The position numbers and the translations under genes were made by a program. The notes under the pieces were generated by a model, which saw only the letters and a list, made by a program, of their open reading frames with translations, was not told the origin of the DNA and did not search any database. Source: Actinomycetes bacterium (GTDB lineage: Bacteria > Actinomycetota > Actinomycetes > S36-B12). Taken from it: 64,000 nucleotides of DNA. The stretch is taken from assembly GCA_024641635.1 (NCBI GenBank), contig JAHECS010000003.1, positions 62,001 through 126,000 on the forward strand, written 5' to 3'. Of this stretch, positions 34,105 through 37,052 are shown piece after piece (the first letter of the stretch is position 1; every line of letters begins with the position of its first letter).

Positions 34105-34140
34105 GTGACGAACCCTAGTCGCGGCTGGACCCAGTAGCCG

Positions 34141-35748
34141 CTATCGGCGGCGGGCTGCGACGGGCACGAGCAGGAGTCCGAGGCCGACGAGCAGGAGGCT
34201 CGCGGTCAGCAGGGCGTGTGTGTCCATCCCCGTGCTGACGAGGTCCTCGTCCGGCGTGTTGCCTGCCAGCGCGAGGCAGTACAGCGAGACGAAGGACCGG
34301 GTGATGTCGATGCTGCTGACGCCGTTGGTGAGGAGCACCTGAACCTTCTGGTCGGCCAGGCGCGGGATCCCCGCGAGGGCGTCCTTGTCGCCGGTGGTGC
34401 AGAAGTCGCGGAGGGCGCCCGTGATGGTGCCCGGATCCACCGGACCGGAGGTTGGTTCAGGCGTGGCGTCGGGCGTGGAGCCCGGCGTGCTCTCAGGTGT
34501 CGCTGCAGGCGTCGAGGTGGCGGACCCAGAGCTCGAGGGTGCCGGTGTCACGGGTGCGGTGGGGGTGCCGGAGGGGTTGGGGGTGAGGGTGGCCACGGGT
34601 GCGGTGGGGGTGGCGGAGGGGTTGGGGGTGAGGGTCACCTCCGGCAAGCTCGTCGTCGGTGTGGCACTCGGCGACGGCGGCCGGATCGGCGGCACGACGA
34701 TGATGGGCGGCTCGGGCTTGACCGGCGGCTCGGGCGGCTCGATCGGGGGAAGGGTCGGATTGCCCGGGTTCTCGACGACCTGGCATCCGTTCCTGAGCAG
34801 CGCCTCCCCTGCTGGCCAGTTGACTCCATCCGTCACGCCGTCGACTGGAGGGATGACGTCACCCCAGCCCTGCTGCGGGTAGAGGGGCCCGGTGTGGCTG
34901 AGGTGCCCGGAGTTCTCGATCGAGTTCACGCTCACCGTGATGAGCGTGTAGGGGTTGTCGACCGACGTGGTGGCGTGGCAGATGGTGACCTTGTCCGCGC
35001 TGAAGGGGTCGGCGCTGTCGGCGACCGATGTGCTCGCGTTCCCGGAAGGTGAGGGGGATGCACTCGACGGGGCCACGGGCTGAAGTCCGGTGTCCGGGGT
35101 GGCCAGAGATGGAAGATCGCTGGTCGGGGTGGCCAGCGGAAGGGTCGTCACGCTCGGGTCGGATCGCATCGACCTCGTGCCGCCAGCGCTGACGCAGGAG
35201 ATGACCGACTCGATGGGCGACCCCTGGCCGGTCACGTACTCGCCCGGTTCCGGCTTGTTGTAGACGACCGGAACCCCCGCCGTGCCGACGATCACGTTGC
35301 TGTAGCGCCAGTTCCCCGGTGGGCCGGTGAACGGCAGCGAGGAGGCGGGCAGGACGTAGCTCTCGGCGTTGTCGAGTCGTGCCTTCCAGCAGATGTCGCC
35401 GAAGCCCAGGCGTCGCCACGTCGAAGGCGCGCCGAAGTCGGTGCCGGGCGATGCGACCTTCACGCGGCCATCGCCGGAGGTGGCGACGACGACGAGGGCT
35501 AGCGGGGCTCCGGACGTGGTGACGAACTGGAGCTGTCGCGGCTCCGGGCCGCGCTGGATCCGGATCTCGTCCGGCTGGAGCTGCTTGACCGGCGGAGGCA
35601 CGTACGGGTCCGCGGCGACGAGCTCGGTGGTGTCGGCCGCCGGCACGACCGCTGGTACGGCCACGGCCACGGGGAGTGCCAACGGAAGCGGTGCGAGGGC
35701 AAGGACGGCGACGCCGATGCCGCGCATCGCGCGTTGCCCCCGGGCCAT
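34141..35748 (-). CDS. Secreted Pro/Thr-rich surface protein with LVSTG sorting signal
   Basis: The 535-residue protein has a signal peptide (GVAVLALAPLPLALPVAVA) and a globular N-terminal half. An ICHATTSVDNPYTLITVSVNSI domain seen in many actinobacterial exported proteins follows, then a Pro/Ser/Thr stalk and a C-terminal helical segment (DFCTTGDKDALAGI onward). The end is LVSTGMDTHALLTASLLLVGLGLLLVPVAARRR-type: five-residue motif, hydrophobic helix, basic tail. This is the tripartite sortase signal with LVSTG instead of LPxTG. The start follows GAAGGAGAGAG. The sortase gene lies just upstream. Confidence 0.8.
   Translation of the reverse strand: MARGQRAMRGIGVAVLALAPLPLALPVAVAVPAVVPAADTTELVAADPYVPPPVKQLQPDEIRIQRGPEPRQLQFVTTSGAPLALVVVATSGDGRVKVASPGTDFGAPSTWRRLGFGDICWKARLDNAESYVLPASSLPFTGPPGNWRYSNVIVGTAGVPVVYNKPEPGEYVTGQGSPIESVISCVSAGGTRSMRSDPSVTTLPLATPTSDLPSLATPDTGLQPVAPSSASPSPSGNASTSVADSADPFSADKVTICHATTSVDNPYTLITVSVNSIENSGHLSHTGPLYPQQGWGDVIPPVDGVTDGVNWPAGEALLRNGCQVVENPGNPTLPPIEPPEPPVKPEPPIIVVPPIRPPSPSATPTTSLPEVTLTPNPSATPTAPVATLTPNPSGTPTAPVTPAPSSSGSATSTPAATPESTPGSTPDATPEPTSGPVDPGTITGALRDFCTTGDKDALAGIPRLADQKVQVLLTNGVSSIDITRSFVSLYCLALAGNTPDEDLVSTGMDTHALLTASLLLVGLGLLLVPVAARRR
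34550..34639 (-). repeat. Two 45-base tandem repeats in the surface-protein stalk
   Basis: Units 34550-34594 and 34595-34639 differ at only a few bases and encode two near-identical 15-residue repeats, ATLTPNPSGTPTAPV and VTLTPNPSATPTAPV. Such Pro/Thr stalk repeats often vary in number between strains. Confidence 0.8.
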
Positions 35749-35819
35749 CTCTCTCCTTCGAACCGTCGATACGAGCGTCACGGTAGTGGACGCCCTGCGA
35801 AGGGGCGCGGTTCCGACCG

Positions 35820-36875
35820 TCAGTCGAGCAGCGTGGCGAACACGATCAGGCGGCGGTCATTGATCCCTGGGGGGTCGCACGTGGTCAGGGTGAGGGTGGG
35901 CTGTCCGGTTCCGAGGGGATCGACGCCGAGGACCCACGTGGCATCCGGGTCCACCAGCTCGGACCGGTCGACCGCGTAGATGTGTCGCACGCCGGTCCGA
36001 TCCGTGACGCGGACCCGGTCGCCGGCCCGCAGCTCGTCCAGCTTCAGGAAGGGCGAGCCCCATCCGGTGCGGTGCCCTGCGACGGCGAAGTTGCCTTGGG
36101 CGCCAGGTTCGGAGGTGGTCGGGTAGTGGCCGGGTCCGCGACTCAGGTCGGCCGCGGTGACATCCGGTCCGACGTACAGCGTGCGGTCGGTGACGGGTGC
36201 GGGCGACCCGGGCCGCTGGAACTCCAGCTTGGCCAGAGGCTCCGGCGTGAACACCGGGTCAGGGGCCGGAAGGGACGACCCGGACTCGACCTCGCCGGCC
36301 AGCGCCGACGTCGCCACGGGGGCCCCTGACTCACCGTCCGCTGCCGCCGCGAACGACTCGGAGGCAGACGGGTCGCTCGGGTCCTCAGCGCCCGATACGG
36401 ACTGGGGGGCGCCGACCAGGGGTGCATCCCATGCCTCTGCGGCCTCCGCCTGCCCGACCTCGAAGGCGGCGTCCGAAGCCGTCGTGCCGACCATGGCCAC
36501 CAGCGCGGTCGCAGCACCGAGGGCGACCATCGTCCAGCCGAGGAGCGCACGGGGACCCGTGCCTGCCGAGACGTCGGTCGAAGGCACCTGACGAACGACG
36601 GCCACAGCGGCGGCCGTGGCGACGAGCAGGGTGGCCGCGGCTGCCCACGACGGTGCGTCGACGGCGATCGTGCCCAGGCTCGTGAGGGCGGCGAGCGGGA
36701 GCAGCCAGACGAGCCGGATCCGTCGGTTCAGGACCGCGAAGGCGGTGACCGCGGCCAGGACGAGGAGCGCCCACCAGCGGTCCGACGGGCCGAGGAGGCG
36801 CGACGCCAACCAGGGAAGGGCGGCCGCCATCGCCACCTGCGCCGACAGCAGGACGGAGTGCCGACGCGACGCCAC
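35820..36875 (-). CDS. Sortase with polytopic N-terminal membrane domain
   Basis: The C-terminal 140 residues form a sortase domain with the catalytic histidine in NFAVAGHRTGWG (about residue 268), the cysteine in TLTTCDPPG (about 333) and arginine in NDRRLIVFATL (about 341), closest to class E by the TLTTC form. The N-terminal 130 residues have about five TM helices, unlike the single anchor usual for sortases, followed by an acidic Ala/Ser linker. It is upstream of the LVSTG protein, probably its dedicated substrate. The start GTG 36875 has GGGAGGT 5 bases upstream. Confidence 0.85.
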   Translation of the reverse strand: MASRRHSVLLSAQVAMAAALPWLASRLLGPSDRWWALLVLAAVTAFAVLNRRIRLVWLLPLAALTSLGTIAVDAPSWAAAATLLVATAAAVAVVRQVPSTDVSAGTGPRALLGWTMVALGAATALVAMVGTTASDAAFEVGQAEAAEAWDAPLVGAPQSVSGAEDPSDPSASESFAAAADGESGAPVATSALAGEVESGSSLPAPDPVFTPEPLAKLEFQRPGSPAPVTDRTLYVGPDVTAADLSRGPGHYPTTSEPGAQGNFAVAGHRTGWGSPFLKLDELRAGDRVRVTDRTGVRHIYAVDRSELVDPDATWVLGVDPLGTGQPTLTLTTCDPPGINDRRLIVFATLLD

Positions 36876-37005
36876 CACCGACCTCCCACGGCCCCGCGCC
36901 CGCCTGCCGGACGCCCGATTTCCCCGCAAGTATGCGCTCGGGCTACCCTTGGGGCCGCTTCCGCGGGGCCGCAAGGCGCTGTGGACGGCACGCAAACACC
37001 CTCCT

Positions 37006-37024
37006 GCCACGGAGAGACCGTGGC
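37006..37024 (+). promoter_or_regulatory. Hairpin in the rpsF leader
   Basis: GCCACGG-AGAGA-CCGTGGC forms a 7-base stem 28 bases before the rpsF ATG. S6:S18-binding leader structures are known upstream of rpsF in many bacteria. Whether this hairpin is one of them is unverified. Confidence 0.3.
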
Positions 37025-37052
37025 CGCCTAGTCCGAAGGAGGTGGGTTGTAC

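Follow-up and report, generated by a model that had tools for sequence, protein, structure and literature searches.

The usual picture of a sortase is a soluble domain held by a single membrane helix, a view that makes the way a sortase finds its membrane substrate hard to study. Class C (pilus) sortases, often encoded beside their substrates, have more than one TM helix, N- and C-terminal, whereas the sortase described here has no C-terminal helix; exosortases and archaeosortases are polytopic and process C-terminal sorting signals, but their fold is unrelated and their active site lies amid the helices, in contrast to the intact C60 domain that lies outside the helices in the present enzyme. 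An LVxTG signal has reportedly been found in a Gardnerella surface protein. The closest described systems are SrtE1 and SrtE2 of Streptomyces coelicolor, which act on the LAxTG signals of chaplins and resemble the present pair in the catalytic triad, an equivalent of Tyr229, the absence of proline at signal position two and an actinobacterial host (PMC5148588). Tyr229 of SrtE1 has been proposed to form a bond with the backbone amide at signal position two, and in vivo the enzyme depends on the stretch that precedes its helix; it is described with a single TM helix plus a cytoplasmic extension (~100-200 aa in homologues), whereas the sortase analysed here has four extra helices, and the signal is LAxTG in that system versus LVSTG in ours (PMC5148588). 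SrtE of Actinoplanes missouriensis, a long class E enzyme (792 aa) and the first of five sortase candidates listed, alone among these five is required for sporangia to form; its substrate candidates are placed there at separate loci, whereas the substrate considered here adjoins its sortase (PMC13251363).

The window, the whole stretch of 64,000 nucleotides that was analysed, covers positions 62001-126000 of contig C62 (GC 70%) in an actinomycete assembly of 3.06 Mb in 82 contigs, 96.9% complete. The sortase gene (35820-36875, reverse strand) is followed after a 71-base gap by the substrate gene (34141-35748, reverse strand), which runs in the same direction. The genes divergent from the pair are presumably rpsF-ssb-rplI-dnaB, and the gene after the substrate gene encodes an Exo_endo_phos domain (Pfam) and is one we take to be xthA. 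Promoter and terminator scans found none. We propose, with a probability of about two in three, that the two genes form a dedicated operon with a class E-like signal choice, in which the sortase carries a four-helix, lineage-specific docking module.

Our analysis of the 351-aa sortase, identified by its ORF and translation, its Pfam match and a ribosome site, places the start at GTG 36875; GTG 36878, in frame and directly 3' of a GGGAGG-like ribosome site, is also possible. The catalytic domain (residues 227-349; 35829-36197, reverse strand), placed by Pfam, residue positions and alignment to PDB chains, has Y251, H268, C333 and R342, and it exceeds the cut-offs for the C60 superfamily (PF04203, 100.1 bits against 26.6; TIGR01076, 49.2 against 39.35). 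The His-Cys-Arg domain is intact, as the first-pass annotation had stated, with H268, the TLTTC333 motif and R342 all present, and the C-to-R spacing of +9 equals that of Cys320 and Arg329 in SrtE1. Among the class models the best match is class E (NF033747 of NCBIfam), yet its 106.4 bits, over profile positions 85-205 of 211, fall below the cut-off of 160; for comparison, a Streptomyces toxytricini control scored 221.7 and two same-genus relatives 101.6 and 104.1. Alignment to 5cuw puts Y251 opposite SrtE1 Tyr229, within the loop that precedes the catalytic His; in that alignment the Tyr of a GHY motif stands 22 residues before the catalytic His, as 229 stands before 251, and GHY is also found in the window sortase. 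The single N-terminal TM helix of class E is not matched, five helices being predicted. Since the score is below the cut-off but the class E Tyr is present, we name the enzyme class E-like without assigning it to class E proper. The class scores also bear on a pilus-like function, in which the sortase would polymerise its partner or link it to another surface protein and not to peptidoglycan. In one relative (G004) the sortase is followed by two successive substrate paralogues, and the own genome has a substrate paralogue without a sorting signal; both would suit such a function, but class E is the best model, the class C pilus sortase model (NF033745 of NCBIfam) reaches 47.6 bits where the cut-off is 160, and no pilin-like motif was noticed, short of a systematic search; we regard it as highly improbable.

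Ahead of the catalytic domain, Kyte-Doolittle analysis gives five peaks (scores 1.47-1.97) and places all of them on the reverse strand: helix 1 at residues 7-25 (36801-36857), helix 2 at residues 31-49 (36729-36785), helix 3 at residues 55-73 (36657-36713), helix 4 at residues 76-94 (36594-36650) and helix 5 at residues 111-129 (36489-36545). Helix 5 is the counterpart of the ordinary single sortase anchor, and the class-wide matches that reach upstream start near it. Basic residues number two at the N-terminus and one, three, none and two in loops 1 to 4, with none in the 21 residues past helix 5, a pattern that fits an N-terminus inside and a sortase domain outside. An AlphaFold2 model from two sequences put helices on the same five stretches, and owing to its low confidence (mean pLDDT 45.8) it was used solely for helix positions. 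The linker that follows (residues 131-215; 36231-36485, reverse strand), predicted to be extracellular and delimited by residue count and alignment A3, has 15 D/E and no K/R in 85 residues and opens with a conserved juxtamembrane motif, DAAF-x-GQ-AAA-W. The five-helix build with a long acidic linker claimed in the first-pass annotation is therefore borne out, and topology prediction did not reduce it to one helix. A different domain layout, with only three or four helices spanning the membrane and helix 3 re-entrant, seems distinctly unlikely to us: helix 3 is among the weakest helices in relatives, and only three or four peaks exceed the threshold in G007 and G011, but the window protein has five, and five spans put the sortase domain outside and the basic residues inside.

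To judge how unusual this build is, helices ahead of the domain were counted in 88 distinct sortase frames, a survey that was HMM-based, drew on the best-scoring relatives with 1500-base flanks and is so biased, six scanned loci giving no frame. One helix was found in 70 frames, none in 7, two in 7 and at least three in 4, and the frames with at least three all come from the window lineage (G000, the own genome, and G007, G011 and G017); the two-helix frames of G004 and G025 also belong to it but are truncated. This agrees with the earlier claim that sortases are normally single-anchored and that this one is an exception. With the full sortase alignment as query, matches were obtained in 72 of 166 genomes of the order and 285 of 394 of the class, and among the matches listed outside the family the start was the sortase domain or, in a few (such as G179, G387, G465 and G508), near helix 5. 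Searched alone, the four-helix module gave matches in seven of the 85 family genomes, of which six lie within a sortase frame and one is marginal (G088, E 0.006, a 59-aa frame), and in 396 phylum genomes it gave two matches, the own genome and G696. The latter was rejected as a module carrier (E 3.8e-4), being a multi-helix frame of 789 codons that has no sortase motif.

The extra helices might be a mere bulky anchor of an ordinary class E-like pair, with no part in catalysis or substrate choice. We consider this doubtful, while giving it real weight. The catalytic domain looks normal, copies of the module show only 22-33% identity to the window's copy (alignment A2) and the fusion relatives described below do without it, but members of three genera retain the module, which occurs apart from a sortase only in the marginal G088 match among the 85 family genomes and has six invariant columns in A2 (Q13, P21, W35, A47, W57 and P60). 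The polytopic arrangement is real and unusual, but the chemistry is probably ordinary.

The substrate gene encodes a secreted protein, supported by its ORF, translation and ribosome site. The ORF is open to GTG 35781, the listed start, but the translation most likely begins at ATG 35748, which has GAAGGAG ahead of it. All of its features lie on the reverse strand. The hydrophobic core of a signal peptide (35656-35712, Kyte-Doolittle) is followed by an N-terminal domain (35173-35601) common to paralogues and substrate-sortase fusions, by a KVTICHAT...GWGDVIPP domain (34774-34998) also present in further proteins of the family that look exported, and by a Pro/Thr-rich stalk (34432-34746); neither domain has a Pfam match, and the whole protein had no match in Pfam or NCBIfam. 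The expandable Pro/Thr repeat that had been ascribed to the protein held up in part: the stalk is real, with 33 prolines and 23 threonines over 125 residues, but the clean repeat in it is one 45-bp tandem unit at 34549-34635, in 1.9 copies 97% alike. Next comes a pre-signal segment (34270-34350, alignment A1), VQVLLTNGVSSIDITRSFVSLYCLALA, kept before LxxTG in otherwise unlike substrates, then the LVSTG motif (34228-34242) and a C-terminal hydrophobic helix with an RRR tail (34144-34227; sequence and Kyte-Doolittle). The translation of 34141-35748 indeed has the predicted LVSTG-helix-RRR ending, reading LVSTG-MDTHALL...VPVAARRR before the stop with a helix KD of 2.45, so that the pentapeptide, hydrophobic helix, basic tail and exported protein of an LPxTG-like sorting signal are all found in it. 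A V-x-L-T-N-G-x-S segment ahead of the signal is common to the tails of otherwise unlike proteins in alignment A1, from which the tail of G010 was left out, and this segment may be part of what the sortase recognises.

LVSTG had been taken as a departure from LAxTG, a reading that the relatives do not favour. Their substrates carry LVDTG (G013 and G010) or LADTG (two different proteins in G004, two in G011, and one genome more, G007), and the sortase retains the class E Tyr. Given these LADTG and LVDTG orthologues and the retained Y251, LVSTG is best read as the LAxTG signal of class E with Val in place of Ala.

A search for sortases gave one match in the own genome. The accompanying search for substrates used an L[A/V/P/L]xTG plus RR codon-pair pattern, which is blind to TTG/TTA leucines, A/T-ending codons and lysine tails; it gave 46 hits (20 for a control pattern), of which 30 loci were translated and the other 16 read from their first 80 bases. 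Only the neighbour of the sortase has a sorting-signal-like ending, so the proposed scan for other LVSTG-like C-termini singles out the neighbour among these 46. Two hits with hydrophobic stretches (L127 and L131) were rejected as substrates, their chains running on for 510 and 188 residues, as was one at C66:28484, which on full reading is a protein with further hydrophobic stretches and no sorting-signal end. In a tail-profile search of the same genome the neighbour (E 2.4e-28) was the sole full match. A weak match on C43 (E 2.76) was spurious, lying on the strand opposite a gene that reads as what we presume to be ATP synthase beta. The same profile matched a C61 paralogue in the pre-signal half only (E 2.1e-5). 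This paralogue (L105:2949-5372, an 807-codon frame) has the pre-signal segment but stops early, without the LxxTG-helix and basic tail, and it is possibly degraded or secreted free.

The pair recurs in the genus. Identity to the window proteins among same-genus relatives is 53% for the substrate and 49-60% for the sortases, and judged from these sequences the conservation of both is beyond chance. The rpsF-xthA interval (34105-37046 in the window) was inspected in 12 of 14 genus genomes, with G003 and G008 left out (xthA split or without a close match). It holds the sortase, the substrate or both in six of the 12 (the own genome, G013, G004, G011, G007 and G010), is empty in G006 (145 bases), and holds other genes or frames in G001, G002, G005, G009 and G012, several of which we take to be toxin-antitoxin pairs. 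These differing contents indicate that the pair sits at a gene-turnover spot in an otherwise conserved neighbourhood. Sortase and substrate are adjacent and co-directed in G013, G004, G007 and G011, in varying order: the substrate is upstream of the sortase in G011 and G007 (in the latter its stop overlaps the sortase start), and in G004 the pair is spread over three contigs whose joining is inferred. No sortase was found in G010, where the contig ends within the substrate gene. With only one sortase found, a sole recognisable substrate beside it and a pair kept in same-genus relatives, the annotation's dedicated sortase-substrate pair stands.

Across the family, this sortase lineage occurs in 10 of 85 genomes (G000, G004, G007, G011, G013, G017, G025, G082, G083 and G086) and the substrate family in 8 (G000, G004, G010, G011, G013, G082, G083 and G086), a genome being counted for the latter if the match reaches the N-terminal domain or is cut by a contig end (G010). 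The two occur together in seven genomes (Fisher's test 1.9e-7, a value that is not a probability, given the relatedness of the genomes and the near identity of the three fusions). A tree built from 87 sortase domains places the window sortase on the Streptomyces side, with a 100/100 split separating it from 17 further sortases encoded in this family of genomes. Five same-genus sortases (99/90), two FnIII forms (86/70) and three fusions (85/72) form clades whose mutual order is not resolved. The ten lineage sortases need two label changes on the tree, as low a number arising in 0 of 500 shuffles, and one origin appears in 6% of bootstrap trees.

The FnIII forms come from two other genera (G025, L038:6542-9082; G017, L039:8029-10101) and have three FnIII repeats (Pfam) set between helices 4 and 5; those of G017 are flanked on both sides by basic clusters, which would place them inside the cell. 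In three near-identical genomes (G083, L101:3597-6584; G086, L102:878-3619; G082, L103) substrate and sortase domain are fused in one secreted frame, in the order substrate N-terminal and stalk regions, pre-signal segment, ELAATG and sortase domain. No helix lies between LAATG and the sortase domain, the top 19-residue KD after LAATG being 0.52. The last 259 codons of G083 and G086 differ by 24 synonymous and 8 non-synonymous changes, suggesting that the fusion frame is under selection; the G082 copy is split by a frame change within the repeat region. Fusion of the two domain kinds further supports the view that sortase and substrate work together, while the link with substrates of this type can do without the four-helix module, which the fusions lack. 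The fused protein is possibly a self-acting sortase. A wider and rather unlikely reading is that one actinobacterial family has rebuilt a class E-like sortase as substrate-bound machines: a polytopic one-partner form, a form with FnIII inside the cell by charge, and a secreted substrate-LAATG-sortase chain without a later helix that would possibly be cis-acting, self-cutting and single-use. Separately, G082 has a second sortase (L104:1-2025) with an NlpC/P60 protein (Pfam) ending in LADTG-helix-RRRR just upstream, another adjacent pair.

For the window pair we favour the docking-module reading, in which the substrate would be exported through Sec and then retained by its C-terminal helix and RRR tail. 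The extracellular sortase domain, to go by its conserved residues, would cut LVST|G via Cys333 with His268 and Arg342, and the product would be joined to a cell-wall precursor. Tyr251 may bond the backbone amide at signal position two as proposed for SrtE1 Tyr229; with such backbone bonding a non-proline residue, for example Ala or Val, can fit there. The extra four helices would form a lineage-specific membrane module before the usual single anchor. This module may dock the membrane segment and pre-signal motif of the substrate, or else the machinery of export or of lipid II, a role we infer with a poor structural model at hand. Docking would make the sortase serve its own operon partner and would replace the job of the SrtE1 cytoplasmic extension, whose requirement in vivo is the closest precedent.

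Among the open-access papers to which our search was confined, we found no polytopic C60 sortase. A polytopic, class E-like, substrate-dedicated sortase is therefore only provisionally an undescribed architecture, as the first-pass annotation had suggested it may be. The window pair would extend the LAxTG signal of class E-like sortases to L[A/V]xTG. One polytopic sortase with one recognisable substrate, together with its rearranged and fused relatives, would offer a direct test of the role that the sortase's membrane region plays in substrate choice.
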